DNA of 64,000 bases from Comamonas sp. GB3 AK4-5. GTDB lineage: Bacteria; Pseudomonadota; Gammaproteobacteria; Burkholderiales; Burkholderiaceae_C. The notes under the pieces were generated by a model. It worked only from the letters and a program-made list of their open reading frames with translations, ran no database searches and was not told the origin of the DNA. This document shows positions 5,342 to 34,070 of the stretch, in pieces. Made by a program: the position numbers and the translations under genes. The stretch spans positions 1,922,001 to 1,986,000 of the forward strand of contig NZ_CP166730.1 of assembly GCF_041320665.1 (NCBI RefSeq), given 5' to 3'. The stretch's first letter is position 1; the number at the start of each line of letters is the position of its first letter.

Positions 5342-5344
5342 TAA

Positions 5345-12733: not shown

Positions 12734-13888
12734 TCACCGTTCCGCAGGATGAGTAAGGAAACCCGATCGCCAGAGGTACTCGAAATAGGTGGTCAGCAAC
12801 TCGCCCTTGCGCTTCTCATAGGCGATGCCGTTACGGCTCATAGCTCTCATGGCGAATTTGCTTTCATACTGGTCGATGTTGATGGCAGAGCTCAGCACGC
12901 GATGCTCCGCATCGTCCTTTCGATAGAGCGGAAGGAACTTGTAGATTGCGTTGTCCTCGGCAATTGCGTCCAGCCTGCGTTGCCATGAGGAAAACGGCAT
13001 CTGCTCCATGACGTAGCCTTGTGCAGCGAGCCAGTCGATGATCTCTCTCCACGAGACGAGTTCTGCGCCGTTGAAAGCGTTGAATACTTGCCCACCTGTG
13101 CCCAAGAACTCAGGGGCCGCCATCAGGCGTGAGATGGTGTCTACTGGTGTCATGTTGATAAGACGCTCCATCATCGGAGCGGCACCTAGCTGGATACATC
13201 CCTTGATCAGCATGAAGAGCTGATTGTCCTGGTGCAACGAAACGCCTGTGACACTGTGCCCGGTAATCCGGCCCAGCCGAAAGATGTTCGCTGGGTATCC
13301 GCTTGCGTGAACACGGGCAAGAAGCCGCTCTGATGCCCACTTCGACTGAAAGTACCCCATGCTGCTTTCGAGTGGCGTGTCATCTGGGAAGTCCTCGGCC
13401 AGCAAACCCTGGGGTGTCCGGCGGGCCGCTGCCCCTAGGGTGGAGACGAAATTAAGCACCTTGGGGCGCCCCTGCAAACTTAACCGAGCGAGTTGTGCCG
13501 TGCTTTCGACGTTGGAGGTGCGGAGCTCTGAATAGGGCAAGAGATGGTTGACTTGCGCGCCAACGTGATAAATGGTATCGACCTCGTTGGCCAACATGCT
13601 TTGCGTTGCTGTTGACAGTCCCAGTGTAGGCAGCGCCAAGTCGGCCTCGACTATCACGATTCTGGGTGAAGGCTGTAGCGGTACAAGCTCGAACCGGTTA
13701 AAGCTTAGGGCGAGCTTCGATTCAAGATCGAGCTGGCGACCGCTTCGGCGCAGCAGAACGTAGATACGCCCGATGCCTGCGATTTTTGCCAGTTCGACAA
13801 GAAGGTGAGCTCCGACGAAGCCGGTGGCTCCAGTTATCAAAACTGTTCTCTCCAACGAACGCGCAGCGTTCAACTCTTCAGCAGGCAT
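12734..13888 (-). CDS. Stand-alone thioester reductase (extended SDR)
   Basis: 384 residues. NAD(P)-binding Rossmann motif TGATGFVGAHLLVEL (about 20-34) and the SDR Tyr-x-x-x-Lys in MGYFQSKWASERL (about 180) are intact, and the block VDTIYHVGAQVNHLLPYSELRTSNV is typical of the reductase domain at the end of NRPSs and carboxylic acid reductases. These enzymes reductively release a carrier-bound thioester as an aldehyde or alcohol. Here it is a separate protein, the last gene of the NRPS-PKS operon, 9 bases after the type II thioesterase gene. No carrier domain is attached, so it must act in trans on the megasynthase. Confidence 0.9.
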   Translation of the reverse strand: MPAEELNAARSLERTVLITGATGFVGAHLLVELAKIAGIGRIYVLLRRSGRQLDLESKLALSFNRFELVPLQPSPRIVIVEADLALPTLGLSTATQSMLANEVDTIYHVGAQVNHLLPYSELRTSNVESTAQLARLSLQGRPKVLNFVSTLGAAARRTPQGLLAEDFPDDTPLESSMGYFQSKWASERLLARVHASGYPANIFRLGRITGHSVTGVSLHQDNQLFMLIKGCIQLGAAPMMERLINMTPVDTISRLMAAPEFLGTGGQVFNAFNGAELVSWREIIDWLAAQGYVMEQMPFSSWQRRLDAIAEDNAIYKFLPLYRKDDAEHRVLSSAINIDQYESKFAMRAMSRNGIAYEKRKGELLTTYFEYLWRSGFLTHPAER

Positions 13889-13897
13889 GGGAACCTT

Positions 13898-14638
13898 TCA
13901 CATTGAAGGGGTCTGGATTTGCAACACGCGCCGGCAAAGCAACTGCGAGAAAAGCACCGGGTTCTCATGTATGAAGAAATGGCGGCCAGGTAGTCGGTCT
14001 AGCGTGAATGCCTCCGAGGTCATCGCGCGCCAGCCGTCCAGCGCCGCGAAATCCACGTCCTTGTCATCAATCCCACCGAAGACATGAATGGGAATAGAGA
14101 GTCGGATCAGAGAGGGCCATGACCACGTTTCGAGGAGTGCAAGATCACCTCGAATGGCGGGCTTGATCAGTTCGAACAGTTCCGTTGGCATGCCGAGTTC
14201 GTCGATACCATTGGCCATTAGCCGTTGATAGAGACCAGCATCGTCGGTAAGATGAAGAAGAGGTGGCCGAAAAGGCACACTGGGTGCACGGCAGCCCGAG
14301 ACGATCAGCGCGCAAGGTAGAGGGCCTTCTCTGTACTCATACAGCCGGCACGCTAGCGCATAAGACATCCACCCTCCCATGCTATGGCCAAAGAACGCGA
14401 ATGGCCGGTCAAGCCAGGGCCGAATCGCTTCGTCCACTTCTGTAACTAACATAGCGAAGTCCGTCGGATGCCTGTCCTGCAGCCTCGCCTGCCGACCGGG
14501 CAGCTCAATGCCGCACAGCTCGAAGTCGCCAGGCAGCGATGCCAGTACCTGGCGATAGCAGCTTGCGCCTCCTCCTGCATATGGAAAGCAGAACAGGCGC
14601 ACCGCTGCACTTGGGAGGGGCCGAGGACAGACGATCAT
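13898..14638 (-). CDS. Type II thioesterase (alpha/beta hydrolase)
   Basis: 246 residues. Starts RLFCFPYAGGGASCYRQVLASLPGDFELCGIELPGR, the typical TEII opening, with nucleophile Ser in GHSMGG (about residue 87) and the late His in GRHFFIHEN (about 225). TEII enzymes remove stalled or wrong acyl groups from carrier domains of NRPS/PKS assembly lines. Its start overlaps the aconitase stop by 4 bases, showing that these genes are one transcript. Confidence 0.92.
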   Translation of the reverse strand: MIVCPRPLPSAAVRLFCFPYAGGGASCYRQVLASLPGDFELCGIELPGRQARLQDRHPTDFAMLVTEVDEAIRPWLDRPFAFFGHSMGGWMSYALACRLYEYREGPLPCALIVSGCRAPSVPFRPPLLHLTDDAGLYQRLMANGIDELGMPTELFELIKPAIRGDLALLETWSWPSLIRLSIPIHVFGGIDDKDVDFAALDGWRAMTSEAFTLDRLPGRHFFIHENPVLFSQLLCRRVLQIQTPSM

Positions 14639-17298
14639 TGCGGACTTTCGGAGCGCTTGAGAAACCCTCCTACCACATAGGGAAGGATTCCGCCGCTACA
14701 CAAATAGGAAAGTTCTTGCTCCGTGTCGATGCGGACGGTCACCTGAAACTCCAATGTCCGATCATCACCAATCGCCTGAACGGTGCCACTTCCCTTGACC
14801 ACCATCGGGCAGTGAATGGCCAGGACTTCATCTCCACGCAAGCCGAGAGACGACAAAGACCGTCCTTCGGAGAGTTCCAGCGGAAGCACACCCATGCCGA
14901 CAAGGTTGGCCCGATGAATGCGCTCAAAGCTCTCCGCGACTACGGCCCTAACTCCCAGCATTGCCAGTCCCTTTGCAGCCCAATCTCTGGACGATCCAGC
15001 GCCGTACTGCTTCCCTGCGAGAATTACCAGGGGTGTATCGCTTTCCACATATCGCATCGCCGCATCGAAGATGGGAAGAATATGCCCCGTTGGATGGTGG
15101 ATCGTCATTCCACCTTCTCCTGAAGCGATGAGTTTGTTCCTGATCCGTTGGCTCGAAAGGATGCACCGCACAGAGATGTCGGAGTTACCACGGCGCGATC
15201 CGTAGGAGTTGAAATTCTCCGGACGAATACCTCGGGCGAGGAGGTATTTCCCGGCGGGGCTATCCACCGGAATGGCTCCCGCAGGTGCGATCAGGTCAGT
15301 ATTGACGGCATCACCCAGTATCGCAAGCACGCGCGAATCCTGGATCGAAATCACATCATCGTACAGTTGCTTGGGACGCACGACATATGGAGGCCTTTGA
15401 ATGTATGTAGAGTCATCGGGCCAGTGGAATAACGGACTGCGAATCTGCGCGAGGGTATCCCAGCGCTCGCCGCCTTCCAACACCGACGCATAAATGGTTC
15501 TATAGCGATCAGCGTTGACGTGTGCGGCAATGGCTTTCTCCACATCCGTGCGCTCAGGCCAGATGTCTCGCAGATATACGGGCTCCCCTCCGGGCGTTGT
15601 ACCGAGCGAGGCATTTGCGATGTCAAAATCGATCCGCCCGGCCAGCGCGTAGGCAATCACTAGGGCGGGCGAGGCGAGCACGTTCATGCACACGTCGTCG
15701 TGAATGCGTCCCTCGTAGTTCCTGTTTCCCGATAGCACCGCGCATACCGCCAGATTCCGCGCCTTGACCTGTGCGGCGACCTGCTCGTTGAGCGCGCCTG
15801 AATTTCCGATGCAAGTAGTGCAACCGTACCCTACGACGTGAAAACCGAGTTGCTCCAATGGATCAATCAATCCCGCTCGGCCAAGATAGTCCTCGACCAC
15901 GCGCGATCCAGGTGCAAGGGATGTCTTGACCCAGGGCTTGGTTGTCAAGCCGCGTGCTACTGCGTTTTTCGCGAGCAGCCCCGCGCTAATCATCGAGGCC
16001 GGATTCGAGGTGTTGGTACATGAGGTAATGGCGGCGATCACCACGGCACCTTCCATCAAGGTAGGCGCTGTGTCGTGGCTATTGTCTGCCTTGGTCGATC
16101 CACTTTCCGTTGCCTTTCTCAATGCCTCCCCGAAGACCGCTCCAGCGGATTCCAGAGGCACTCGGTCGTGGGGTTTCGCGGGTCCTGCCACGCAAGGAAC
16201 AATGACCGATAGATCAATCTCAAGCTCTTGCGAGTAGCATGGCTGTTTGCCTTGTGCATCATAGAAGAGCGCCTGTCTTCTCGCGTAGCTCTCAACCCTT
16301 GTCACATCTTCGGGCGTGCGCCCCGTCAGGTGCAGAAAATGCAGCGTTTGCTCATCGATTGGAAAGAACCCCGTAGTAGCCCCATATTCGGGGGCCATGT
16401 TTGAGATAGTGGCGCGATCGAATACGGAAAGCTTCGAAACGGCAGGCCCAATGAATTCGACGAAACTCTCAACCACATCTATCTGACGAAGCCTCTCGAC
16501 GATAGTGAGAACGATATCGGTTGCAGTGACGCTGGCCTGCGGGCTGCCAGTCAGCCGGATGCCTACAACTCTGGGAATGCTCATAGGCACCGGCAACCCC
16601 AGCAACGCAGCCTCAGCCTCAATTCCGCCAACGCCCCATCCAAGGACGCCGAGCGCATTGACCATGGGGGTGTGCGAATCTGTTCCTATGACGGTGTCGG
16701 GAAAGGCAATGCATTGCCCGTCCTCCAACTGCTGCTCGCAGACGACGCGCGCCAGATATTCGAGATTGATTTGATGAACTATGCCCTTACCAGGCGGGAT
16801 GATCCTCACATCATCGAATGCGTCCTGGCACCAACGCAAGAACTCGTAGCGTTCTCCGTTGCGCTCATACTCCTTTGCTAGGTTCCTTTCTTCCGCATCT
16901 GATTCTCCTGCGTGATCGACCTGCACCGAATGGTCAACCACAAGCTCGATGGGTATCGCCGGCTGCACAAGATTGGGGTCACCACCGCATTCCCGGATGA
17001 CGTCACGCATGGCGGCCATGTCCACCAGTGCTGCGACACCAAGAAAATCCTGCATGAGAATTCTCGAAGGATAGAAAGGCATCTCCATTCGATGGCTCTC
17101 GGGTTCCGGCCATGCAAGGATTGCCTCGATCAGCTCGGCTGCGTGTGTGATGCGGGAGGCATTGCGCAGAATGTTCTCAAGCAGAATGCGCAGTGTGAAT
17201 GGAAGGTGCGAGATGTCACCATATTGGCCTATCTCAAAAATCTCCGGCACCCCAGTGGTCGGTCGGATTACTGGTTTATGGCGCTTTCTGCGTTGCAT
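14635..17298 (-). CDS. acnA: Aconitase (AcnA type) inside the biosynthetic operon
   Basis: 887 residues, full length. [4Fe-4S] ligand cysteines are in AITSCTNTSNP (about 429) and YGCTTCIGNSGAL (about 496, two Cys); the swivel domain ends YGAGSSRDWAAKG. Catalyses citrate-isocitrate isomerisation through cis-aconitate. ATG 17298 (MQRRKRHKPV) follows AAGGAG by 8 bases and is preferred over a GTG 18 bases upstream. It overlaps the thioesterase gene and follows the TauE gene by 29 bases, so it belongs to the cluster. A second aconitase in a gene cluster often means either a pathway-dedicated isomerase or a resistant copy protecting the producer; the sequence alone does not decide. Confidence 0.93.
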   Translation of the reverse strand: MQRRKRHKPVIRPTTGVPEIFEIGQYGDISHLPFTLRILLENILRNASRITHAAELIEAILAWPEPESHRMEMPFYPSRILMQDFLGVAALVDMAAMRDVIRECGGDPNLVQPAIPIELVVDHSVQVDHAGESDAEERNLAKEYERNGERYEFLRWCQDAFDDVRIIPPGKGIVHQINLEYLARVVCEQQLEDGQCIAFPDTVIGTDSHTPMVNALGVLGWGVGGIEAEAALLGLPVPMSIPRVVGIRLTGSPQASVTATDIVLTIVERLRQIDVVESFVEFIGPAVSKLSVFDRATISNMAPEYGATTGFFPIDEQTLHFLHLTGRTPEDVTRVESYARRQALFYDAQGKQPCYSQELEIDLSVIVPCVAGPAKPHDRVPLESAGAVFGEALRKATESGSTKADNSHDTAPTLMEGAVVIAAITSCTNTSNPASMISAGLLAKNAVARGLTTKPWVKTSLAPGSRVVEDYLGRAGLIDPLEQLGFHVVGYGCTTCIGNSGALNEQVAAQVKARNLAVCAVLSGNRNYEGRIHDDVCMNVLASPALVIAYALAGRIDFDIANASLGTTPGGEPVYLRDIWPERTDVEKAIAAHVNADRYRTIYASVLEGGERWDTLAQIRSPLFHWPDDSTYIQRPPYVVRPKQLYDDVISIQDSRVLAILGDAVNTDLIAPAGAIPVDSPAGKYLLARGIRPENFNSYGSRRGNSDISVRCILSSQRIRNKLIASGEGGMTIHHPTGHILPIFDAAMRYVESDTPLVILAGKQYGAGSSRDWAAKGLAMLGVRAVVAESFERIHRANLVGMGVLPLELSEGRSLSSLGLRGDEVLAIHCPMVVKGSGTVQAIGDDRTLEFQVTVRIDTEQELSYLCSGGILPYVVGGFLKRSESPQ

Positions 17299-17327
17299 GT
17301 GACAGTCTCCTTGCACATCTCGACGGA

Positions 17328-18068
17328 TTACCTGATGCCGCTATAGATGAGTTGAGCTGCGGCGATCAGCGCCGCGCCCTGGATACAGCGTTTGAAGATG
17401 TTTTCGTTTAGAATTCCGATCAACCGATACCCTATGTAGCCGCCGAGCAGTGCCAACGGAATGCACATGACATTTAGGATCAGCGAATCCGCAGTGATGA
17501 GGCCGATGCTGGCCGAGAAGGGGAGCTTGAAGGCGTTCAGCAGCAGGAAATACCAGCTGCGCGTTCCGATGAATCCTTTCTTGTCCATGCCCAGCTGCAG
17601 AAAATAGATGCCTAGGAGCGGGCCCGCCGCGTTAGCCAGCATGGTGGCGACTCCCACCAGCAAACCGACGACGATGGTGTAGCTCCACTGGGCTATCTGT
17701 CCCAGTTTCACGCGCTCCACCACCATCCCAGTCAACAGCATTACGATGATCGTGACACCCAGCACGAGGTCGAATACCTTGTTTGGTATGGCATCCAGAA
17801 TCAGGTAGCCTATCCCGACCCCGGCTGCGGTCAGCGGGAAGAACTTCAGGATGACCCGCCAATCACAGTCTCGCCGGTAGTAGAGGACAGCGAGCAGATC
17901 CGCAAAGACCATCAACGGAAGAATGATGCCGGTGGACTGCTTACCAGGGAATCCGATGGCCACAAGTGGGACTGCAAGGATCACCAGACCCCCTACGGAT
18001 GTTTTGGAAAAACCAATCAGGATTGCGGCGAGGAAGATACAGATGTAGGCGGTTGCACTGTAGTCCAT
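17328..18068 (-). CDS. TauE/SafE family permease
   Basis: 246 residues, about eight hydrophobic segments, starting MDYSATAYICIFLAAILIGFSKTSVGGLVILAVPLVAIGFP; the motif GFSKT..GGL is typical of TauE/SafE (sulfite exporter TauE-like) proteins. Family members move sulfonates, sulfite or other organic anions. Position between the megasynthase and aconitase suggests a role in exporting a product or an anionic precursor; the substrate cannot be read from the sequence. Confidence 0.88.
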   Translation of the reverse strand: MDYSATAYICIFLAAILIGFSKTSVGGLVILAVPLVAIGFPGKQSTGIILPLMVFADLLAVLYYRRDCDWRVILKFFPLTAAGVGIGYLILDAIPNKVFDLVLGVTIIVMLLTGMVVERVKLGQIAQWSYTIVVGLLVGVATMLANAAGPLLGIYFLQLGMDKKGFIGTRSWYFLLLNAFKLPFSASIGLITADSLILNVMCIPLALLGGYIGYRLIGILNENIFKRCIQGAALIAAAQLIYSGIR

Positions 18069-18137: not shown

Positions 18138-21100
18138 CTACACGTTTTGTACTTTTTCCCAGAGCGTCGCAACATCCTGTTCTAAGTTCTCCGCATGGGA
18201 TGTCTGCGCACTTGTGCGCCTTGTAGGACTTGCGTCGCTCACTTGTGGAGCCCTTGTCGACAGGGTGCCCGAGCAGCGCACTAGGTCATGTGCTATTCCC
18301 AGTACCGTTGCGTTTCGGTATAGCTGACCTATGTCCAACGAGATTCCCATCTCCTTCGAGATCAGTCTCTGCATCTGCATCAGAACCATTGAGTCTCCGC
18401 CCAATGAAAAGAAGTTGTCGCCCTGTTGCACTCCTTCAACACCCAGAAGCCGTTCCCATATTCCCGAGACGCCGCAAATGAAGGAATCTATGTCCATTGG
18501 TACGGTGGAGATCTGTTCGTCGGCTGGCTGGGACGAATCGGACCCGTTGGAGCCGGCAGATGTCGCTGATTCCAGCAGCGGATCGATCCAGAATCTTTTG
18601 CGCTGAAACGGGTAGGTCGGCAACGAGATCTTGTGACCATTGCCGCCGCCGTAATAGCGATGCCAATCCACTCCTACCCCCAACTCCCAGGCACGGCCCA
18701 GTGCCTGCTTGAAAGCCGTGTCGTCGGAAATGGGGCTCTTCTGGTGTCTGCATGAAGAGATCACCTTAGTTGGCACCATTCCTGAAGACGCCTCCACGAA
18801 GTTCTTGAGAACTTGCCCGGGCCCGACTTCAATCAAAACTAGGTTCTTCATGGAACCCAGCCTCTCGACGCCGTCGTGAAAGCGAACCGTCTGGCGAAGG
18901 TGGCGAACCCAGTAGTCCGGATTCGTCGCCTCGTGCGCTGACAGCCAGTCTCCCGTCAGATTTGAGACGATGGGCAAACTGGGGGGGGCCATCTCGATAC
19001 CGTCGAAGCAGCGCCTGAATTCATCTAGCACGCCATCCATCATGTGCGAGTGAAAGGCATGCGATGTATTCACACGTACACAGCGAATGCCTTCTTTCTC
19101 CAACTCGACCTGGCAGCGGTCGATTTGGTCAAAATCACCAGAGACGACCTGTTGCATTGTGAAGTTGATGGCAGCCAATGAGCACCCCGTCTTTGTCAAT
19201 GCATCATCAAGCTGCTGCACAGAACAGGTGGCAGCCAACATCGTACCTGGGGAAACTGCTTGCATCAGGCGGCCACGGGCCGCAACTAAGTCGAGCGCGC
19301 TTTCGAGCGAAAACACGCCTGCGATGCAGGCCGCAACATACTCGCCGAGGCTGTGTCCCATGCACGCGGCAGGGGAGACTCCCCAGCGGATCCACAATTG
19401 GGCCAGTGCGTATTCAAACATGAACAGGACGGGCTGCGATATGCGCGTTTGCTTGAGCGCTTCCTCCGCAACTGCCTCATCACCAGGATGAGGAAAGACA
19501 ATCCGAAGTACATCCTCTTGGAGCAGCGGGTCGAGGATCTCACAGCATCTGTCCACGCACTCGGAGAACGAGGGGACGTTGAAGTAGAGGTCACGCATCA
19601 TCCCGATGTGTTGAGTCCCTTGGCCTGGAAAAAGAAAGGCAACCTTCGGCTGCATCCGAGCCACCCGACTTAGTTTCGATGCCAAGAAATCGTCCATTTC
19701 CTCCAACAGCGTCGATGTAGTACTGGCCACGAAGGTCGCTGCGTAGGGGTGGTGTACCCTGCCGCACGCAAGCGTCAACGCTATGTCTCTCAACGGAATG
19801 AGCGGCTGGGCGCGAAGAAAGGATGCTATTTTGGCGACATAAGCATCAAGTGCGCGGGGTGTTTGCCCCGAAAGGACAAAGATCTCCGCTCCATCAGAAT
19901 CGGTGGCTGAGCCGCGCATCGGGATTGCCTGGTGATGCTCGAGCACCACATGGGCGTTTGTGCCGCCTAGCCCGAAAGCGCTCACCCCTGCCAACCGCGA
20001 GCCCGTGCAATCTTTCCAGGGCACCGACTTCGTATTGACATAGAAAGGCCCTTGGTGAAATGGAATGTGCAAATTCGGTGATTCGTAGTTGATACTTGCC
20101 GGAAGAATCCCATGCTTGAGCGCCAGAGCGACCTTCATCAACCCCACAACTCCCGATGCGGTACTCAAGTGTCCGACGTTGCCTTTTATCGATCCGATTG
20201 GGCACCGAGCGCCGCTGGGATAGTTTGAGAAGACATGATTCAATGCGGTGATCTCGATCGGATCACCGACAACAGTCGCCGTTCCATGCGCTTCGATATA
20301 GTGGATATCTGACGGGGCCACGCCGGCGTCGTGGATCGCCCGCTCGATGGTAGCGATCTGCCCTGCTACTGCTGGCGCTGTGAAACCCACTTTCTCCGTG
20401 CCGTCGTTGCCGACTGCGGAGCCCCGGATGACGCCATAGATATGGTTTCCTTCACTCAGCGCATCCTCCAACCGCTTTAATAGAACGACGCCAGCGCCGC
20501 TGCCGAACACCGTTCCAGATGCGTTGCGATCGAAGGGACGGCATTGACCGTTTGACGACTCGATTCCACCTTCCCCACGAGCATAGCCATGCCCGTGAGG
20601 AACAATGACACGGACCCCTCCCGCTAGCGCTTGCTTGCAGTCCCCTGCCTGAAGGCTTCGAACCGCATTGTGCACGGCGACCAGAGAGGATGAACACGCC
20701 GTGTCGATATGCATGCTGGGCCCTTGCAGGTCGAGCTTGTAGGAAAGAAAGGATGCGGCGTAGGTCCGGTCGTTGAACAGTAATGCGCGCCGATCTCCGA
20801 TCTGAGCGATCAAGTCGTCTCGTGCCCGAACATTGTTGAGGTAGTAGTCGCTTTTCCCCACGCTGACGAAAACGGCCGTTTGCGGGGTCTGTGATGGCAA
20901 CTCGCCGGCATCTTCAAAGGCTTCGACACTGCACTCCAGAAGAACCCGGATCTGAGGGTCCATTAACTCAGCCTCCCGAGGCGTCATCCGAAAGAACTCG
21001 TTGTCGAAGTATTCGATGTCGTGTAGCAGTGAGGTCACCAGCACGCGATCCGAATCGCGGATGGCCTCGACCGCGATCCCCTGTCGCTGCAGCGTCTCGA

Positions 21101-23102: not shown

Positions 23103-23152
23103 AGGACCTCTCCAGAGATGCTTAAGAGTCTTGTTTCTCTTGGTTTGCAGCT

Positions 23153-25377: not shown

Positions 25378-26166
25378 TCACATGGGTTTGTCAGCGCTGG
25401 CGGCGGACATACTGCTGCCGGCCGAGGCTTTCTGGGGAGGCTGCTTTGCTCCAGAGAACGGGCAGCGTCCCGTAGCAGGTGAGTTGTCATCAGAGGCGCA
25501 ATACTGCTTCCACCGGAATGCCAACGTCTCGTCAATGACGTTGAAATCCGGGTGCATTTCCATGTCTCCGTCGTAGGCTTGGAGCTTCGGACGAATGATC
25601 TTCCGTGCCTGAATGCCGCCAGGCGTGGCACCCTCGATACCAATGAATACGCGCTTGGGCTGAAACAGGATCATCATGCTTTTCCCAAAGCGTCGGCTGT
25701 TGCGCTGCTTGTAGGCAGGGAAGCCGCAGAACAGGAAGATGTCGTCGCCCGAGAAGCAGAACTCCCAGTTGGGGTTCTCCGTATCCTCGGTCACATGCGC
25801 TGGCCACGGAAGGGGATCATGCTGGTGCAGATAGTTGACAATTTCCCAGAACCGCTTTTGATAGTGGTCGAAGTCATGCTCTTCTTTTTCTGGCTCAAAG
25901 AAGGTGATATAGGCATGCCGAACGTCTGCGTGCTCACGCGCGAACTGCATAAATTCATTGAGCTTTGCCGGCAACTCATGAAGCGCGTCCCGGTTGATCA
26001 CGCCATAGCGCATCTCGTCTTTCTTCACCCCCACCGTGCCGAAGTAGCACGGGAAACTTGAGTGAGTGACCTTTTTATGGAAGATGTCAAACTCGTCAAT
26101 GGCCCAAGGTGCTATCAGGCTGGGGTCACGCATGTCTGCATTGGTTAGCGGCCGGTTTGTATTCAT
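25378..26166 (-). CDS. YqcI/YcgG family, GntA-like heme N-hydroxylase candidate
   Basis: 262 residues from ATG 26166 (MNTNRPLTNADMRD), chosen because GGAG lies 6 bases upstream; longer starts exist. The family blocks are clear: FPCYFGTVGVKKDEMRYGVI, FFEPEKEEHDFDHYQKRFWEIVNYLHQHDPLPWP, NWEFCFSGDDIFLFCGFPAYKQRNSRRFGKSMMILFQPKRVF and QARKIIRPKLQAYDG, ending in CPFSG. The characterised member GntA is a heme-dependent N-hydroxylase in guanitoxin biosynthesis. Its presence beside an NRPS-PKS suggests that the product contains an N-O bond, perhaps on a guanidine or amine. Substrate is inferred only from this relationship. Confidence 0.85.
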   Translation of the reverse strand: MNTNRPLTNADMRDPSLIAPWAIDEFDIFHKKVTHSSFPCYFGTVGVKKDEMRYGVINRDALHELPAKLNEFMQFAREHADVRHAYITFFEPEKEEHDFDHYQKRFWEIVNYLHQHDPLPWPAHVTEDTENPNWEFCFSGDDIFLFCGFPAYKQRNSRRFGKSMMILFQPKRVFIGIEGATPGGIQARKIIRPKLQAYDGDMEMHPDFNVIDETLAFRWKQYCASDDNSPATGRCPFSGAKQPPQKASAGSSMSAASADKPM

Positions 26167-26259
26167 CATTGTCTCCATCAGGTTGAACAAGAAATGGCCC
26201 GATCCTGGAAGAGACGGGCAAGGGAGCATGTGAGGGGCCATGAAGATCGTGGCAGTTCT

Positions 26260-27975
26260 TCAGCCATAGAAATCACCCAAGGCCGGCGCCACCTCGATAC
26301 CGTCGATCTGCACGTCCACTACGACTGTCTGACGGTTTTGATATGCATCAAATGCTGCGATCAGCGCATCGCTCAGTGCCTCACGGTGCCGCACTGGCAG
26401 CAGCACAATGTCTCGGTGTTTGAAATTGAGATCACTATTGAAGCCAAAGCCTGAGCTGGTACAAATGTGGGGGGCGCCATTTTGCAGACTTTGCTGCCAC
26501 TGGCGTTCCAGCCACCCGTAGGAGCTGTTGTTAAAAACCAGATAGATCACGGGCAATTCGTGGTCGGGCGCAGTGCAAAGATCGCTACGAAAGAGATTGA
26601 ATGCGCCATCACCGACCAAGGCCATCACAGGGGAGTTTGGGCGCGCGAGCTTGACCCCGATAGCTGCCGCCGCGCCAAAGCCCAGTGTGGTTTGCTCGCT
26701 TGGAACGATGCTGCATTGACCATCCCTCAATGCAAAGTAGGGGTAGAAATAGCTCCACATATCGGCCAAGCCGTTTTCGTGGACAAAGACCGTATCCGGC
26801 GGCGCTATACCGTGAAGTGTCCTCACAACATCCGCCGGCCGGATTCCGCTGCACCCCGGCTCGATGGCTGGTAGCTCGGCCATGTATGCGCTGCAGTCCG
26901 CGTGGGCCTGTCTGCGCAATCTGGCGATTTGGATCAACCACTTGCCTTTTGCCGGCTGATCCCCCGCTGCGGCGGCTGGGGCTGGAGTCTCCATGAGGGA
27001 AAGCCAATGTTCTGCGCAGGCTGCGGCATCCCCCATCAGCTTGAGACTTTCGACACGGTGGGAGAAATTGGACGGCTCGACATCCACCTGAATCCATTGC
27101 GCGTCGGGAGAGATTTGCGGCAGCAGTGCCAAGGCCGTCTCCTCAAGCCTGGAACCAAGCACCAGCACTAGGTCAGCGTGGAACCAAAGCTCACGTAACG
27201 CCTCGGCAGTGTAGATGCCTGCTAGGCCGCAGAACAGAGAGTGAGACTCTGCTACGGCGCCACGGCCCGATGCTGTTGTGAAGAGAGCCATTTCATTGCG
27301 CTCGGCCAGACGCTCATAGAGCCCTGTGCCACGCGCTGCCGCAAGGGCCCCGCCACCCAGCAGGAGAATCGGCCGTTGAGCCCGCTTCAGCCTGTACCAG
27401 GCTTCCTGCAGCACAGCTACCTCAGGCGTACATAACAAACGGTATGGAGGGGATGGCAGTAATACCTGCTTCCCAGCAGGAGCCGTTGCCAGGTTTTCCG
27501 GCAACTCCACGTACACGGGGCCCGGCTGACCATTGACTGCCAGGAATGCGGCTCGCTGCAGTGCCCAGCCCAGGCGCTCCATCTGCTCGACTCGGTAGGC
27601 CCACTTCACCAGCGGTCGCACCATCGCCATCTGATCAGCCTCCTGGAAGGCGCCGTTTCCGATGGATTCCTGGGCCGTGCCGGTGGCCAACAGGAGCACT
27701 GGTGCGGACAACGATTGGCATTCCAGCAAGCCTGTCAGTGCGTTGCCCAGGGCAGGCCCTTTACCCACTACGCAGACCGACAGCCGTCCACTGGCCAGGC
27801 TCTGTCCGCCGGCCATGAACATTGCGTTCCGCTGGTCTCTCGTCAAGATCCAGCGCAAGCCGTGCCGCCGCACTGCCTGCAACGCCGCCAGGTCGTCATT
27901 GGGCAAACCAAAAACGGCTCGCACGTCCCATTGCTGCAGTGTGCGCATCACGAGATCCCATGCATTGCTGCTCAT
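26260..27975 (-). CDS. Thiamine-diphosphate enzyme (2-oxoacid decarboxylase / acetolactate synthase-like)
   Basis: 571 residues with the three-domain ThDP fold: pyrimidine-binding domain with FGLPNDDLAALQ...LTRDQRNAMFMAGG (here RDQRNAMFMAGG replaces the usual HEQ/RHEQGA block), central domain about 190-330, and ThDP/Mg motif GDGAFNLFRSDL...YLVFNNSSYGW (about 455-485). The glutamate that activates ThDP is not obvious (Asp in TRDQRN may sit there or next to it), so activity needs caution. Relatives decarboxylate 2-oxo acids, including 5-guanidino-2-oxopentanoate. With the adjacent aldehyde dehydrogenase it could make a chain-shortened acid starter for the megasynthase. Confidence 0.85.
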   Translation of the reverse strand: MSSNAWDLVMRTLQQWDVRAVFGLPNDDLAALQAVRRHGLRWILTRDQRNAMFMAGGQSLASGRLSVCVVGKGPALGNALTGLLECQSLSAPVLLLATGTAQESIGNGAFQEADQMAMVRPLVKWAYRVEQMERLGWALQRAAFLAVNGQPGPVYVELPENLATAPAGKQVLLPSPPYRLLCTPEVAVLQEAWYRLKRAQRPILLLGGGALAAARGTGLYERLAERNEMALFTTASGRGAVAESHSLFCGLAGIYTAEALRELWFHADLVLVLGSRLEETALALLPQISPDAQWIQVDVEPSNFSHRVESLKLMGDAAACAEHWLSLMETPAPAAAAGDQPAKGKWLIQIARLRRQAHADCSAYMAELPAIEPGCSGIRPADVVRTLHGIAPPDTVFVHENGLADMWSYFYPYFALRDGQCSIVPSEQTTLGFGAAAAIGVKLARPNSPVMALVGDGAFNLFRSDLCTAPDHELPVIYLVFNNSSYGWLERQWQQSLQNGAPHICTSSGFGFNSDLNFKHRDIVLLPVRHREALSDALIAAFDAYQNRQTVVVDVQIDGIEVAPALGDFYG

Positions 27976-27990: not shown

Positions 27991-29196
27991 TCAAAAATGC
28001 TCACCCACCACCTGCGACAGCAGGATGGGCGCAGGCTTCACGCGTCCGGCATGAAACACGTAGTTGGCCATCTGCCCATAACCACCGAAGGGCAAATTCC
28101 CATCCTCAATGTCGAACAAGGTCTGCTCGATGGCGACCATGTGATTGGCTTGGAGGAATTTGGCCAGTACCGGACTGCCATGCACGCTTGCCCCCATTGC
28201 GCGATCCCGGTAGAAGCTCTGATCCAGTTCCGCCATGAGACTGGCCTCGTCGCGGTAGCTGACGATGCTGAAGATCGGGCCGAAGTATTCGACCACCGGA
28301 GGTTTGTCTTCAAGGCTGCTCCGCAGAATGGTGGGCTCGATCTTCCGCTTGGAGAAATCGATGGTCCCGCCAGCCTGGATGTACCGGGCGTTGTCTGCTA
28401 GATATTGAGACAAGGTCGACATCGTTGACGAGTAGAAAATCGGCCCATAGTCAGCTTGCGGATCATGTCGCGGGCCGAAGACCATGCTGGACAGTCGCTG
28501 ACGCATGTACTCGCTGAAATCGTGTGCCCGATCCTGATGAACGAATAGCACGTTCGGCCCCATGCAGTCCTGCCCTGTATTGAACATGCGGGCGGTAATC
28601 AGATCCTGCACAGCACGCTCAATGTCCGCACTGCCGCCCACAACTGCGGGATTTACGCCTTGACCAAAGAACACGTAGGTCTGCCGGTTAGACGAAAGCC
28701 TGCAGCGCACCAATTCAGCGTTCTTGTACGTGCCGGTAAACACTACCAACTGGGCCCGAGACACTGATTCTTCAATGAATATCCTCTGGCTAACAAGCTG
28801 CAGGGAAATGGGCAATTGATGTACTGGCTCCAGCAGTTGATGCAGGAGTGCGGTCTGCTCGGTGATATGCGAAGATGGCCTGAAAAAAATTCGCTGCGTG
28901 TAGAGAGACGGAATGACAAGGTACAGCACGTAGAAATACAGCACCATGTTCGACGGCATGAAAACGGCCATGCAGTCCACAGACTGATCGTTGACATGCT
29001 GCTGTACCTCTTGCTCCGCGCCTTTCAGTGCCTTGACGCTTGACTGCCATTCGGCCGCCGCCGCCGCATAGCCAGCGTGACCCGTCAGCAGCCTTATGAC
29101 TTTTTCCTTGTTCTCGTCCATGAATTCCGTCAGACGCCGAATGGAATTGATACGGTCTTGCCTGGATTGCTTGGCGCAGCCAATCGAAGAGGTCAT
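27991..29196 (-). CDS. Atypical aldehyde dehydrogenase-family protein
   Basis: 401 residues, about 80 shorter than usual because the N-terminal cofactor-binding segment is reduced. The nucleophile Cys is present in NTGQDCMGPNVLFVH, followed by the C-terminal blocks EPTILRSSLEDKPPVVEYFGPIFSIVSY and NLPFGGYGQMANYVFHAGR. The general-base Glu of the usual ELGG motif is replaced (VFFGQGVNPAVV), as in CoA-acylating or reductase-type members, so oxidation to a free acid is not assured. First gene of the operon, 15 bases before the ThDP gene. Confidence 0.85.
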   Translation of the reverse strand: MTSSIGCAKQSRQDRINSIRRLTEFMDENKEKVIRLLTGHAGYAAAAAEWQSSVKALKGAEQEVQQHVNDQSVDCMAVFMPSNMVLYFYVLYLVIPSLYTQRIFFRPSSHITEQTALLHQLLEPVHQLPISLQLVSQRIFIEESVSRAQLVVFTGTYKNAELVRCRLSSNRQTYVFFGQGVNPAVVGGSADIERAVQDLITARMFNTGQDCMGPNVLFVHQDRAHDFSEYMRQRLSSMVFGPRHDPQADYGPIFYSSTMSTLSQYLADNARYIQAGGTIDFSKRKIEPTILRSSLEDKPPVVEYFGPIFSIVSYRDEASLMAELDQSFYRDRAMGASVHGSPVLAKFLQANHMVAIEQTLFDIEDGNLPFGGYGQMANYVFHAGRVKPAPILLSQVVGEHF

Positions 29197-29276
29197 CGCT
29201 TTCTCCGGTTACTCAAAAACTGCATTTGTCGCCGCGGCAGTCTTTGCCATTTAGTGACGCTCAGAATAGGAGCACG

Positions 29277-29313
29277 CCAGAAGGGGAAACTGACGATTTC
29301 GCCGCAGATTCGG
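29277..29313. promoter_or_regulatory. Candidate regulator site upstream of the biosynthetic operon
   Basis: CCAGAAGGGGAAACT (29277-29291) followed by CGCCGCAGATTCGGCCAT lies about 80-120 bases upstream of the operon's first gene. Close matches (CCAGAAGGGAAACT at 31673-31686 and TGCCGCAATTTCAGCCAT at 31718-31735) lie just upstream of the GlxA-type regulator gene, in the opposite orientation relative to the gene. Shared regulation is inferred. Confidence 0.4.
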
Positions 29314-29480
29314 CCATCTATTGCCAAAGCTCAAACTGGACTGCTACCGGTTCGGTAGACAAATCCCAGCCTCAAGCCGAGGCGCGTTCAAACGCCTTGG
29401 GGCTATGCCGCCGAGATGACTGTGGCAGCGGGTTCGGTTGCAGAACTGTTGATTTCCACCCAGAAGTGACCCTTTGGGGA

Positions 29481-31078
29481 TGCGGACAAAAACTTGGACT
29501 ACCAGGAGGTAGTTCATGTACTCATACGCAGACAGGATTCGTGTAGTTGAGCTTTACATCAAGCTTGGCTTGCGTGTCAGAGCCACGATTCGCCAGTTGG
29601 GATACCCAACCAAGAACGCATTGAAAGGCTGGTATCAGCACTATCTGAAGCATCAGGATTTGCCAGCAAGCCAAGCTCCAAGAGCACCAAAATATTCGCT
29701 GCAGCAAAGGCAGGTGGCGGTTGCTCATTACCTCGCCCATGATCGCTGTATTGCTGCAACGATGAGGGCTTTGGGTTATCCGGGTCGAGGAACGTTGACT
29801 GCGTGGGTTCGGCAAGACTGCCCTGACACCTGCAAATCGATAGCAGGCAGATCTTGGCTGGCTACAAAGCCTGATGCCTTGATGTGCGAGGGCGTGGTGC
29901 AACTGTGTACCCGCCAATCAACTGCGCAGGAGATAGCGGACAATTTTGGGGTATGCAGAGGAACCTTGTACAACTGGAAAAATCAGTTGCTTGGCCCTTG
30001 TGCCCCCGCCTCGATGAAACACAGTCCAAAGCGATCGCCAGTGTTGGATGAAGCAGCGCTGCGGCGCCAAGTTGAATCATTGCGCCAGGATGTCCGGCGG
30101 CTGAAGATAGAGCGCGAGCTCCTCAAGCAGGCCCATGAAATCTTAAGAAATGGGTCCGACATTGACCTGCATAGGCTGACAAACAAAGATAAGGTCGTGC
30201 TGGTTGAGGCGTTGCGCGGGCAGTATAAATTGCCAGAACTGCTCTCTCTTGTAGGTCTTGCTAGAAGCTCGTATTTTTACCGTCGTGCCAGGCTGAAGCT
30301 GACTGAAAAATACTTGGATGTACGCCGAAGCATCACAGATATCTTCGACAACAACTACCGTTGCTATGGATATCGCCGAGTCCAGGCATCCCTGCTCAAG
30401 GAGTGCACGGGCATCTCAGAGAAGGTGGTTCGCCGGCTGATGAAGCAGGAGGGTTTGATCGTGGCCAAGCCCAAACGCCGCAGATATAACTCATACCTTG
30501 GAGAGATAGGTGCTGCCCCGCAAAACCTAATCAATCGAGACTTCCATGCTGCTGCGCCCAATGAGAAGTGGCTCACCGACATTACCGAATTCCAGATTCC
30601 TGCTGGCAAGGTTTACCTGTCGCCAGTGATTGATTGCTTTGACGGGTTGGTGGTGAGCTGGTCCATTGGGCCCCATCCCAACGCAAATCTCGTCAACACA
30701 ATGCTGGATGCGGCCATTGATGCTGTTCAAGGCAGCGAGAGCCGTCCTGTGATTCATTCTGATCGTGGAGCTCACTACCGCTGGCCGGGATGGCTCTCGC
30801 GGGTGCACGATGCAAAATTGGTTCGTTCAATGTCCCGCAAAGGGTGCTCACCAGACAACGCTGCGTGCGAAGGCTTCTTTGGAAGGCTAAAGATGGAGTT
30901 GTTCTATCCCGGCAACTGGCAATCAACGACGATTGAGCAGTTCATTGAAGCTGTCGATACTTACATTCGTTGGTACAACGAAAAACGTATCAAGGTATCT
31001 CTGGGACGTTTAAGTCCTGTGGAATACCGGCACAAACTTGGCCTAGCCGCATAAAACCAGTCCAAGTTTTTATCCGCA
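29481..31078 (+). mobile_element. Intact IS3-family insertion sequence (1598 bp)
   Basis: Ends TGCGGACAAAAACTTGGACT (29481-29500) and AGTCCAAGTTTTTATCCGCA (31059-31078) form a 20-base inverted repeat with one mismatch and TG...CA termini. No target duplication is visible (gga left, cct right). The flanking sequences (about 29450-29474 and 31098-31130) are themselves inverted relatives of each other (GTTGATTTCCACCCAGAAGT versus GTGGAAATTAACAG), so the element appears to sit between remnants of an older IS, perhaps IS21-type. Confidence 0.85.
29516..31054 (+). CDS. IS3-family transposase, single fused ORF
   Basis: 512 residues. Two N-terminal helix-turn-helix segments (about 5-60 and 60-100), a leucine-zipper-like stretch (RRQVESLRQDVRRLKIERELLKQAHEILRNG, about 180-210), an HTH_21 domain, and the rve catalytic core with DDE residues in WLTDITEF (about 346), HSDRGAHY (about 418) and DNAACEGFFGRLK (about 452). 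OrfA and OrfB are joined in one frame without frameshift. Looks active. Confidence 0.95.
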   Translation: MYSYADRIRVVELYIKLGLRVRATIRQLGYPTKNALKGWYQHYLKHQDLPASQAPRAPKYSLQQRQVAVAHYLAHDRCIAATMRALGYPGRGTLTAWVRQDCPDTCKSIAGRSWLATKPDALMCEGVVQLCTRQSTAQEIADNFGVCRGTLYNWKNQLLGPCAPASMKHSPKRSPVLDEAALRRQVESLRQDVRRLKIERELLKQAHEILRNGSDIDLHRLTNKDKVVLVEALRGQYKLPELLSLVGLARSSYFYRRARLKLTEKYLDVRRSITDIFDNNYRCYGYRRVQASLLKECTGISEKVVRRLMKQEGLIVAKPKRRRYNSYLGEIGAAPQNLINRDFHAAAPNEKWLTDITEFQIPAGKVYLSPVIDCFDGLVVSWSIGPHPNANLVNTMLDAAIDAVQGSESRPVIHSDRGAHYRWPGWLSRVHDAKLVRSMSRKGCSPDNAACEGFFGRLKMELFYPGNWQSTTIEQFIEAVDTYIRWYNEKRIKVSLGRLSPVEYRHKLGLAA

Positions 31079-31129
31079 CCTCCACTAGCCCCCGGCGGGT
31101 CAGTTTTGCGTGGAAATTAACAGCAGAAC

Positions 31130-31587
31130 GCCTCGATGTAGTCGAAGACGTCGGCGCGAGCTAAATCCCGGGTCTTTTAGATTCGCTTTTGGACGCATGC
31201 CCTCTTCAGGCTGATGAAGAAGAACTCGGCGACGGCATTGACGCTCCTATGTCAAGGGCTACGCGAAGACTCCGTCAAATCGACCATGATGAGCGGCAAC
31301 AGCTCGCGCACGATGTAGCATTTGAGACATCGGAGGATCTCCTCGCTGGCCCCCTCTCGATTCACGGAGGTTGCCAAAGACACGCCGAGCACCATAGACG
31401 CCACAGCTGGCAGCATAGAAATGGCAGATGAGCTCCAGCAGCCTGGTGTCGTCCTTGGCTCGGTCGGACACCGGGCATTGCAGCCAGGCATACAAAATCC
31501 GCACCCCCTCCGTGCCACCTGAAGAATCCGGCACATCAAGGCCAGCGGATATTCATGACGGTGTTCGTTCATGAAGCGATACTTCAC
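31130..31587 (-). pseudogene. IS3-family OrfB, degenerate
   Basis: Minus strand from about 31587 reads MKYRFMNEHRHEYPLALMCRILQVARRG, then changes frame (AWLQCPVSDRAKDDTRLLELICHFYAASCGVYGARRVFGNLRE). After a large internal deletion the C-terminal end NAVAEFFFISLKR...RIxKTRDLARADVFDYIE appears at 31130-31245 with an in-frame TAA. Non-functional remnant just upstream of the GlxA-type gene. Confidence 0.85.
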
Positions 31588-31672
31588 TCTGGCTCCCTTG
31601 CAAAGTACCGCGCGGCTTTTTTACTCCTCTTGTCTACCAGACCGGGAGCAGTCGAACCAGATCGGTGGCAGT

Positions 31673-31730
31673 CCAGAAGGGAAACTTCCAAGGCTATGCT
31701 GGCAATTTCGTAATCTTGCCGCAATTTCAG
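31673..31730. promoter_or_regulatory. Candidate operator upstream of the GlxA-type regulator
   Basis: CCAGAAGGGAAACT (31673-31686) and, nearer the ATG, TTGCCGCAATTTCAG. Both parts resemble the region upstream of the biosynthetic operon at 29277-29313, though the spacing between the two parts differs (4 versus about 26 bases). Confidence 0.35.
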
Positions 31731-31732
31731 CC

Positions 31733-32749
31733 ATGCCCGCCAGACAACTCAATACATCAACACAGACCCGCGTCGTGGTACTGGTTGTTTTCGATGGATT
31801 TCTGTCGCTCGACGTGTCCGGCCCTTGGGAGGTCTTTTCCAAGGCTTCGCGCATTGGCGCCGCGAAATCTGGACGCCCCGCCTATCGCCTCGTTTTGGCA
31901 TCGCCCAACGGCGGCGTGGTAGGTTCCAGTTCCGGCTTGGAGTGGGGTAATACCGTTGCCGTTGCCGACCTCCATGGGCCTATTGACACGGTGCTGATAG
32001 CTGGAGGTGATGTCAGGGTGTACGAGCCCGGAGGGGCAGCTGTAAGCCTCCTGCCTTGGCTGCGGCGCAAGGCCCAAATGGTCAGGCGCATGGGCAGCGT
32101 GTGTACAGGTGCATTCGCATTGGCCGCAGCGGGCTTACTGGATGGGCGCCGGGCAACCACGCACTGGAATGCCTGTGCGCGGTTGGCGAAGACCTACCCC
32201 AGCGTGCAGGTGGAACCCGATGCCATCTATATCACCGACCCACCTTTCTATTCTTCGGCAGGCGTTTCAGCCGCTATCGACTTGTCGCTCGCCCTGGTTG
32301 AAGCAGATCTCGGACAACCCGTTGCCTTATCCATCGCGCGTGATCTGGTGCTCTACTTGCGCCGCCCAGGAGGGCAGTCGCAGTTTTCTGCGGGCCTACA
32401 AGCCCAAATGGAGGCTAATCACCGTTTCCGTGACCTCGTGATATGGATGATCGAAAATCCAAGGAACGATTTGAGCATCGCCATGCTGGCTGAACGCATG
32501 GCGATCAGCGAGCGTCATTTCGCACGCCTGTTCCGCAGTGAAACCGGCAAAACACCCGCTCGCTTCGTGGAGGAGTTAAGGCTGGATCATGCGAAAAACC
32601 ATCTGGAGCAAACATCCTGGCCGTTGGAGCGTGTAGCGCAGCGTGCTGGCTTTGGATCTGTTGACAGCCTTCAGCGCAGTCTGCGCCGCCATGCCGGTAT
32701 TACCCCTGAGTTGTATCGCCAAAGGTTTGGCCAAAAAGGAGAGTACTGA
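31733..32749 (+). CDS. GlxA-family AraC-type transcription regulator
   Basis: 338 residues from ATG 31733 (MPARQLNTSTQTRVVVLVVFDGFLSLDVSGPWEVF). Residues about 12-185 form a DJ-1/PfpI-like class I amidotransferase domain with Cys in MGSVCTGAFALAAAGLLDGRRATTHW; residues about 235-330 hold two AraC helix-turn-helix motifs (SIAMLAERMAISERHFARLFRSETGKTPARFVEELRLDHA and LERVAQRAGFGSVDSLQRSLRRHAGITPELYRQRF). Such regulators sense small amines or amino acids and activate nearby genes. It points away from the biosynthetic operon across one IS, so it is the likely cluster regulator. Confidence 0.92.
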   Translation: MPARQLNTSTQTRVVVLVVFDGFLSLDVSGPWEVFSKASRIGAAKSGRPAYRLVLASPNGGVVGSSSGLEWGNTVAVADLHGPIDTVLIAGGDVRVYEPGGAAVSLLPWLRRKAQMVRRMGSVCTGAFALAAAGLLDGRRATTHWNACARLAKTYPSVQVEPDAIYITDPPFYSSAGVSAAIDLSLALVEADLGQPVALSIARDLVLYLRRPGGQSQFSAGLQAQMEANHRFRDLVIWMIENPRNDLSIAMLAERMAISERHFARLFRSETGKTPARFVEELRLDHAKNHLEQTSWPLERVAQRAGFGSVDSLQRSLRRHAGITPELYRQRFGQKGEY

Positions 32750-32896: not shown

Positions 32897-32956
32897 GGAC
32901 TCCTATTGAAACGGAAATAAAAGGCTTTGAACTATCTACAAAACTCTGTCGATTCA
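32897..32956 (-). repeat. IS3 left-end remnant, copy 3
   Basis: Matches 8888-8948 in the same orientation with a few differences; truncated just before the orfA start, directly against the MITE-like element. The rest of 32957-33299 contains only short IS-end fragments and no gene that I can support. Confidence 0.75.
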
Positions 32957-33299
32957 AATAAACTGAAAATTCGATGTGCCATTCTCGATCGCTTCATTGA
33001 ATTGGGCCGTCCTCAGACGGTGGTTCTGGCATAAGTTTGCCTGGGGTTGGGGAAAGCTCGTTGTGCATTCCATTTATGCAACAGCGTCTCATGGACTGCA
33101 GCTCAAACCCATTCACAACAGTGTCGTCTTTGGTCGTTGTCGGAGCGGAATGACCGGTGGATTCGCTGATCGGCAAGAGCCCCCATAAAGCGGGAATTCG
33201 TCGTGCATTGAGGGAAAGTCCCTGTAGTGCAACAGCGCCTATTCGTGGCTAAAATAATAGTGAAACTAATTTTTTCGAGAAGCTTTAAAATATACCCTG

Positions 33300-34070
33300 A
33301 TGTCCTTTAATATCGCCGTGAAGCCTTCGGGCAGTGACCGCCTTTCACAATATGTATGGAGGCTCCGTACTCCCATAGGCATCGGTGATTTAACTCGAGA
33401 CCTAATCGTGGGTCGCAGTTCCGAGATACTGGCTATTTATGGCCACTGGATCAAGTATTTTTCGGATGCTGAGCATAATCGTGCAGATCTCTTTGTTAAT
33501 CAAGTCGACAGATTAGATTTTATCGCTGCCCATGTCTTAGCCCGCCACATGGTTGCCGCGCTATGCTTCACGGGAGTGGAAACGCCAATTCGCATAACAC
33601 AGCAATGTGGTGTCTGTGGGGGAGCCCACGGGCGCCCATACCTTCTGGACATAGATGGTATGTATGTGTCGTGGGCACACTCCAAGGGTATCGTTGCAGC
33701 AATAGCGTCCGAGGCCGAAGTAGGCATTGATATTGAGTGTGCAAAGTCTATTCAGATTGATGAGTCCCTGGCTCAGGCGTTCCTCAGTACGAGGGAAGTT
33801 AACCGTTGGATGAGATATAAGAAATGGGTCGGCGTTGATGCCGGAAAGAATTTTGCGATTCAGCAATGGGTTAGAAAGGAGGCGTGCGTAAAATTAGGTG
33901 CCTTTGGAATTGAGCAATTTCCCGCGATAACGTGCTTACCGAGGTTACGCCCCTGTGGCCGTCAGGCGGGCCGACGAATGGAGGTGGATTTAGGTGCCCA
34001 TAGTGCCTACCTAACAGACTTCTGTATCGACGAGTTGGGTGTACTAGGTTCCGTCGCAAATTGGACATAG
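33300..34070 (+). CDS. Sfp-type 4'-phosphopantetheinyl transferase
   Basis: 256 residues. Key motifs are ARHMVAAL (about 82), CGGAHGRPYLL (about 103-113), SWAHSKGIVAAIASEAEVGIDIE (about 124-146, Mg-binding DxE) and QQWVRKEACVKLGAFG (about 186-200). It would attach phosphopantetheine from CoA to the PCP and ACP of the megasynthase. It is more AT-rich than the cluster and separated from it by IS remnants, but no other such gene is in the window, so it is a plausible partner. C-terminal residues after about 215 are variable. Confidence 0.88.
   Translation: MSFNIAVKPSGSDRLSQYVWRLRTPIGIGDLTRDLIVGRSSEILAIYGHWIKYFSDAEHNRADLFVNQVDRLDFIAAHVLARHMVAALCFTGVETPIRITQQCGVCGGAHGRPYLLDIDGMYVSWAHSKGIVAAIASEAEVGIDIECAKSIQIDESLAQAFLSTREVNRWMRYKKWVGVDAGKNFAIQQWVRKEACVKLGAFGIEQFPAITCLPRLRPCGRQAGRRMEVDLGAHSAYLTDFCIDELGVLGSVANWT

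Follow-up and report, generated by a model that had tools for sequence, protein, structure and literature searches.

Malleicyprol is the product of the bur/mal pathway, in which a small hybrid nonribosomal peptide synthetase-polyketide synthase (NRPS-PKS) line is accompanied by ketol-acid reductoisomerase and methyltransferase genes. The picolinate route of nikkomycin makes use of the ligase NikE, the acylating aldehyde dehydrogenase (ALDH) NikA and the C-C bond-forming NikB. Enzymes dependent on thiamine diphosphate (ThDP) that lack the activating Glu are also known, as is the case of glyoxylate carboligase. Here a gene cluster of Comamonas sp. GB3 AK4-5 (contig NZ_CP166730.1) is compared with these and other systems; it lies in a stretch of 64,000 nucleotides, called the window throughout. 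The cluster is a real, rare and uncharacterised hybrid NRPS-PKS locus, made of eleven open reading frames (ORFs) that form an operon-like run on the minus strand at 12734-29196, transcribed leftward. Its most interesting part is a pair of genes encoding an ALDH and a ThDP enzyme, both of which have lost a catalytic Glu. The cluster represents a compact, testable orphan pathway. Working out the chemistry of the pair in this operon could account for portions of larger products that are so far unexplained, and would show how ThDP catalysis runs without the usual glutamate. The eleven genes are, in order of transcription (A, adenylation; PCP, peptidyl carrier protein; KS, ketosynthase; AT, acyltransferase; ACP, acyl carrier protein; GST, glutathione S-transferase):

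27991..29196, minus strand, ALDH-family protein, first gene of the operon (PF00171 4.2e-28, profile positions 48-440 of 461)
26260..27975, minus strand, acetolactate-synthase-like ThDP enzyme (PF02776, PF00205, PF02775)
25378..26241, minus strand, candidate heme-type N-oxygenase of the YqcI/YcgG family (PF08892 3.7e-60)
24454..25356, minus strand, EamA exporter (PF00892 2.8e-31)
23838..24419, minus strand, GST-like gene (PF13409 5.6e-11); the ORF opens at 24578 with TTG, the ATG is at 24419
23153..23725, minus strand, PaaI-like hotdog thioesterase (PF03061 2.9e-14; TIGR00369 over cut-off)
18138..23156, minus strand, A-PCP-KS-AT-ACP synthase (Pfam domain order), likely ATG at 23102
17328..18068, minus strand, TauE/SafE-type permease (PF01925 1.4e-28)
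14635..17316, minus strand, complete AcnA-type aconitase, likely start at 17298 (TIGR01341 1114.7 bits, cut-off 945)
13898..14638, minus strand, type II thioesterase (PF00975 9.1e-37)
12734..13888, minus strand, free-standing thioester reductase, NAD_binding_4 (PF07993 9.7e-51; TIGR01746 250.4 bits, cut-off 213; best solved match MxaA, 1.3e-54)

In the initial annotation the ALDH and the ThDP enzyme had been taken for generic tailoring enzymes. Comparison with their relatives shows instead that the two form a conserved pair whose catalytic residues are altered. Genome contigs of 84,980 species were scanned with two peptide patterns derived from an ALDH alignment; the scan was non-exhaustive, and related Streptomyces recur in it. 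The 28 loci retrieved are, by their titles, actinobacterial in 27 cases. A relative of the ThDP enzyme is encoded in the fetched DNA of 26 loci (25 of these 26 are actinobacterial), and was found neither in L032, a 12-kb contig, nor in L056. All 26 partners carry the motif DQR, found in the window enzyme as RDQR, which places a Gln where the cofactor-activating Glu belongs; BbmA, a solved ThDP relative, has Glu at the aligned place. The window enzyme and these 26 proteins therefore depart from canonical ThDP decarboxylases and acetohydroxyacid synthases, which carry the catalytic Glu. The ThDP cofactor motif (GDGAF...VFNN) is present in the window protein. The catalytic Cys of the ALDH (GQDC) is retained in the window and in 28 of 28 loci, and the general-base Glu, found in the two solved ALDHs shown, is absent from all of them. 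The patterns used to pick the loci touch neither of the two sites, although three ThDP proteins of Streptomyces were already known when the scan was made.

The best plasmid matches for both proteins, among those listed, are Streptomyces records, and the two genes lie a short distance apart in L025, L026 and L027. Homologs of acyl-AMP ligases are found in 25 of the 28 loci (none in L030, L033 and L056), homologs of stand-alone-type KS proteins in 18. In two loci a single uninterrupted frame encodes both ligase and ALDH, with 914 amino acids in L031 and 950 open codons in L032. By analogy, these fusions suggest that an acid is activated and reduced to the aldehyde, on which the ThDP enzyme would then carry out a carboligation. 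The same logic, from acid activation to aldehyde to C-C bond, holds for the nikkomycin picolinate route, where the last step is catalyzed by an aldolase and not by a ThDP enzyme. Actinobacterial loci such as those of Streptomyces sp. Mg1 (pSMg1-3, L025) and Streptomyces sp. C10-9-1 (L031) resemble the window in having neighbouring ALDH and ThDP genes, in the loss of both Glu residues and in the vicinity of an acid-activating enzyme. They differ in that ALDH identity is 30-40%, and in having a separate ligase and often KS proteins; moreover, none of the 28 loci has, in its fetched DNA, a match to YqcI, aconitase, TauE or thioester reductase at 1e-6. The closest pair was found in Bradyrhizobium uaiense (L030), where ALDH (46% identity) and ThDP (42%) genes are adjacent; this locus differs in that no NRPS-PKS, YqcI or aconitase match was detected in the fetched DNA. 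Among the papers listed by searches of open-licence literature, none describes the ALDH/ThDP pair or names a product of the Streptomyces cassette, and a search on BbmA and CsmA listed nothing relevant. One listed paper, PMC7466098, concerns ThDP/KS chemistry of the carbazole type, with no occurrence of aldehyde dehydrogenase. No listed paper describes a cluster with the set of eleven genes either, in accordance with what had been stated from the sequence at the outset.

Some features of the cassette loci are worth recording. L025 and L027 host, next to ALDH, ThDP and ligase genes (and KS in L025), genes for serine acetyltransferase, cysteine synthase and two ATP-grasp proteins, and further carry homologs of NikS, dihydroorotase, PrpF and AsnB. 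The Bradyrhizobium pair (12833-16472 of L030) is followed by two genes whose starts resemble, by eye, those of LodA-type oxidases. The strains CB00455, CB02009 and CB02261, from which L048, L047 and L057 respectively derive, are listed in a passage of PMC5181780 among predicted producers of nine-membered enediynes with genes for unusual side groups.

The synthase is 1672 amino acids long. The Pfam domain order A-PCP-KS-AT-ACP corresponds to one condensation module, as the initial annotation held, and the motifs are intact in all domains: TSGTTGTPKG in A, LGADS in PCP, DTACSSS, HGTA and NVGH in KS, GHSLG and HAFHSH in AT, LGGDS in ACP. The hybrid nature of the line is thus evident from a single protein, which holds all five domains with intact active-site motifs. 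HAFH is the usual malonyl signature of AT domains, and the AT is plausibly of the malonyl type. The malleicyprol line is likewise small and hybrid; that pathway was discarded as a model, because no Pfam matches to ketol-acid reductoisomerase-like or methyltransferase families were found in the eleven genes. The ten-letter pocket code of the A domain is YGRCILGAVK, with Tyr235, Gly236 and Arg239 (in presumed GrsA numbering) and no acidic residue at any of the ten positions. Asp235 is found in 14 out of 14 ordinary A domains, those within the limits of the script from 18 loci of other genomes (L005-L022), and is replaced by Tyr in the window, which sets this domain apart from those for alpha-amino acids. 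The two nearest relatives of the A-PCP part (L004, from genome G073, and L082, from Nostoc sp. UHCC 0926) have Asn and Ala at 235, and share Gly236 and Arg239 with it. Since Asp235 grips the alpha-amino group and Arg lies in the pocket, arginine, proposed earlier as a precursor to be fed, is unlikely to be the loaded monomer. The predicted pocket argues against an alpha-amino acid in general; its Arg, together with the absence of acidic residues, also speaks against a guanidino acid.

Passages of PMC10849742 describe AglA, GntA and ChmN as heme guanidine N-oxygenases, members of the YqcI family, and report a heme-ligand role for Cys47 of ChmN; the argolaphos-cluster member and DcsA are assigned to the same family in passages of PMC8976061. 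The YqcI protein of the window belongs here (PF08892 203.8 bits, gathering score 27). It aligns with AglA structures (9uba, 2e-36), and the cysteine of its PCYFG motif is conserved in AglA, the protein to which the cysteine comparison was limited. It scores 46.1 against the GntA equivalog model NF041366 (cut-off 145), and is thus not a GntA by this measure. On these grounds it is a candidate heme-type N-oxygenase, as the N-hydroxylase label given at first had implied. Unlike the described YqcI systems, the cluster has no SznF/ChmM-type or arginase-type domain among its eleven genes. A graminine/diazeniumdiolate pathway was also considered and put aside, as no SznF/ChmM-like partner is encoded there. 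The YqcI protein may act elsewhere in the pathway, if the A domain takes no guanidino acid. The thioester reductase, also named at the outset, belongs to the family of MxaA, which acts in reductive release of the myxalamid type; here it is a free-standing gene and not a domain of the synthase. A Gly-rich motif and Tyr-x3-Lys were recognised by eye, and the protein likely serves the reductive release of the product. The type II thioesterase is probably devoted to editing.

The arrangement of the eleven genes is as initially annotated, with short gaps or overlaps, and Pfam agrees with each of the earlier labels, NCBIfam supporting those for thioester reductase and AcnA. Intergenic distances, as annotated, are 9, -4, 11, 69, -4, 112, -125, 21, 18 and 15 bases. 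By moving the GST start to the ATG at 24419 the overlap of 125 bases turns into a gap of 34, and by moving the synthase start to the ATG at 23102 the second -4 turns into 50; distances range from -4 to 112 bases when GST is counted from its ATG. ThDP and ALDH proteins are over the Pfam cut-offs and reach no NCBIfam cut-off among the matches listed, the best NCBIfam score of the ALDH being only 64 bits. The state of the GST gene had not been commented on earlier, nor had the insertion described below. The GST frame stops early near the 3' end, and what by eye is GST-like C-terminal sequence carries on in another frame. A scan for consensus promoters at 12500-32000 gave three sites, all on the plus strand; shuffled sequences gave more (mean 8.3), and the silence of the scan on the minus strand therefore says little. 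Upstream of the operon are found:

29446..31123, plus strand, IS3-type insertion element (transposase Pfam matches; terminal inverted repeats 29446-29479/31090-31123)
31571..32749, plus strand, AraC/DJ-1-type regulator, divergent (PF12833, PF01965)
33300..34070, plus strand, phosphopantetheinyl transferase, or PPTase (PF01648 2.5e-6, over cut-off)

The cluster had been drawn up to 34070. Regulator and PPTase are indeed close, and the cluster has both a release function, the reductase, and a PPTase in its vicinity; the IS3-type element, however, separates them from the eleven genes. The five bases CAGAA are directly repeated at both ends of the element, as a target duplication. The element accordingly inserted between operon and regulator, and the ALDH gene retains 249 bases of upstream sequence. 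Downstream of the PPTase, the interval 34187-36354 hosts an integrase-core fragment (plus strand) and an IS110-type transposase gene (minus strand).

The reading that we favour, though tentatively, is that of a biosynthetic operon, probably of horizontal origin, which would make a small polar metabolite along the following lines. The PPTase would arm PCP and ACP. The A domain would load a carboxylic acid lacking an alpha-amino group, probably with an anionic group facing Arg239, and the KS would add one malonyl unit to give a beta-ketoacyl-ACP. The separate thioester reductase would free this chain reductively as aldehyde or alcohol, the two thioesterases acting as editors. The ALDH/ThDP pair would work as a cassette. 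The ALDH, devoid of the deacylating Glu, would convert thioesters and aldehydes into each other; an aldehyde would be joined by the ThDP enzyme to an acyl anion from a 2-oxo acid, either in the synthesis of the starter or in the extension of the released aldehyde. The YqcI protein would N-oxygenate a nitrogen-bearing intermediate. The product would be exported by EamA and TauE. The aconitase would either have a tailoring role, with a di- or tricarboxylate as substrate, or be a resistant spare. A broader proposal, rather doubtful as it stands, is that an undescribed ALDH/ThDP partnership turns carboxylic acids into hydroxyketones, through reduction and carboligation and with the help of an acid-activating enzyme, and that here it is coupled to an NRPS-PKS module and an N-oxygenase to make a new class of metabolites, for which aconitase would be the target or a tailoring enzyme.

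In favour of the partnership, ALDH and ThDP identity matrices correlate (r=0.925, 25 sequences; none of 2000 permutations reaches that value), although common descent contributes to this value besides partnership. Several observations weigh against the proposed pathway. Related Streptomyces account for many of the 28 loci, and these are non-independent. The only acyl-AMP-forming enzyme of the cluster is the A domain, so that the analogy with ligase-ALDH fusions is indirect, and the closest relative of the cassette, that of Bradyrhizobium, has no ligase match within the fetched DNA. Two possible aldehyde-forming enzymes, ALDH and thioester reductase, coexist in the cluster without explanation. 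Which way the ALDH reaction runs, and that the ThDP enzyme performs a carboligation, is read solely from residues and neighbours, and the pocket positions 235, 236 and 239 are those that we take to be the GrsA ones. Finally, the GST gene may be degraded or frameshifted, and its possible breakage, together with an insertion 249 bases upstream, makes a silent or decaying operon more probable. An operon in decay, in which insertion and frameshift have put an end to synthesis, is nevertheless unlikely. The direct repeat does mark a true insertion close to the first gene, and the C-terminus of GST is in another frame; yet the other ten genes are open and match their families, and the motifs checked in synthase, ThDP enzyme, ALDH, YqcI, aconitase and thioester reductase are all present, save for the two lost Glu residues, which are common to the relatives. 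The bases that remain upstream leave room for a promoter, and insertion elements can supply one.

A starter derived from arginine was initially the first choice, and was downgraded after the comparison of A-domain pockets. According to this alternative, the guanidine is hydroxylated by YqcI, a chain-shortened aldehyde arises through a host transaminase together with the ThDP enzyme, and the ALDH forms 4-(hydroxyguanidino)butyrate, which is loaded by the A domain and extended by one malonate. The YqcI relatives described in the passages of PMC10849742 and PMC8976061 act on guanidines, the ThDP enzyme scores 196.8 bits against the model of 5-guanidino-2-oxopentanoate decarboxylase, and the acid to be loaded would lack an alpha-amine, as predicted from the pocket. 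A pocket with Arg and no acidic residue in ten positions would however suit a cation poorly. The acetolactate synthase model gives the ThDP enzyme a better score (258 bits), and the enzyme is under both cut-offs (538, and 500 for the decarboxylase); the ALDH has no Glu for the hydrolysis required; no transaminase is encoded by the eleven genes, and none of the 28 ALDH loci has a YqcI match. This alternative is quite improbable.

The role of the aconitase can be viewed in two ways. The protein keeps the Fe-S motifs SCTNTSNP and GYGCTTCIG, and both score and cysteines fit AcnA. It is 43-44% identical to two full-length AcnA-like paralogs of the host, whose genome also features, by family search, a LeuC-type gene and a further frame beside one of the paralogs; the best plasmid relatives are about 51% identical. 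It is thus a complete AcnA paralog, which may be a tailoring enzyme or a resistant spare copy. It is possible, if somewhat unlikely, that aconitase, or its iron-sulfur cluster, is what the product attacks, and that the AcnA of the operon is a tolerant spare. This would account for a complete protein with the cluster cysteines, extra to the two host copies, whose gene is embedded between those for TauE and thioesterase (gaps of 11 and -4 bases). The enzyme could equally be biosynthetic, though, and none of the 28 cassette loci carries one; no case of an aconitase acting as self-resistance copy was met among the papers listed by the search, nor in the passages of PMC12723261, PMC8102738 and PMC12161575 concerned with aconitases, the last dealing with housekeeping AcnA. 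Alternatively, the aconitase isomerises a citrate- or aconitate-like acid of the pathway, perhaps the one loaded by the Arg-lined A domain, and exported by TauE. Arg239 and the adjoining TauE gene fit this role, as does the occurrence near the cassette of PrpF-domain genes in L025 and L027 and of a citrate-lyase-family gene in L027. Precedents are Pmi, an aconitase-like enzyme of the phosphinothricin pathway (passages of PMC12723261), and AMT8, which acts in a chain-homologation cycle (passages of PMC8102738). Pmi is likened here by its description, and no phosphonate genes are found among the eleven. On the other hand, the eleven genes include neither a synthase for such an acid nor a homologation-cycle dehydrogenase, the PrpF co-occurrence may be incidental, and the sequence scores as an ordinary AcnA. 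A biosynthetic aconitase is held to be rather unlikely; because Pmi and AMT8 are in print, its standing was slightly raised, and that of the spare copy slightly lowered, in the course of the analysis.

The operon lies on DNA of low GC content (0.55 at 5550-51900, 0.62 at 1-5400, 0.66 at 52000-64000), with a rise near 52 kb. At the left side are found:

3576..5339, plus strand, guaA (PF00958, PF00117)
5550..6782, plus strand, phage-type integrase (PF00589 3.8e-20)

The guaA region has a match in 50 of 51 congeneric genomes searched, and the match mostly ends near the end of guaA, at about 5340. The integrase is likely the left end of an island. A right attachment repeat of at least 14 bases was not found within the window, and only one 13-mer was met within 40 kb beyond. 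When 53 congeneric genomes were searched at 1e-40, the ALDH gene was detected in that of the window and in none of the other 52. Low GC, integrase, break at the guaA end and restriction of the ALDH gene to this one genome make horizontal acquisition the most likely origin, and the operon was probably acquired in this way. Larger groups were sampled as well; these samples overlap and represent only a small share of each group, and a fast first filter was applied, so that relatives can be missed. The A-PCP part matches at 1e-85 one of 299 genomes of the family, and at 1e-60 42 of 399 genomes of the order, the window's own included in both counts; the best foreign matches, two in G073, are 41 and 40% identical, the others listed at most 36%. 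The ThDP enzyme (1e-75, 398 genomes of the phylum) and the YqcI protein (1e-25, 369 genomes of the class) were found only in the window's own genome. Among plasmids, 3033 records match the synthase and 48 match YqcI, none with at least 60% identity, the best YqcI match listed being at 39.8%.

Other features of the window were noted. The junction of guaA with a phage-type integrase gene is a possible integration hotspot; in the congener G700 the DNA match continues through the integrase, and the pieces 36907-38957 and 42241-42897 of the window recur there downstream of guaA and integrase (L080). Between integrase and cluster, two genes at 9370-12529 (plus strand), one of the DUF927 family and one for G2P-type replication, suggest the remains of a replicating element. 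A flagellin gene is located on the low-GC stretch, at 41651-43195. The same stretch hosts a Gabija defence pair at 44591-48621 on the plus strand, in which GajA (PDLC00072) and GajB (PDLC00127) score 1021 and 823 bits, respectively.

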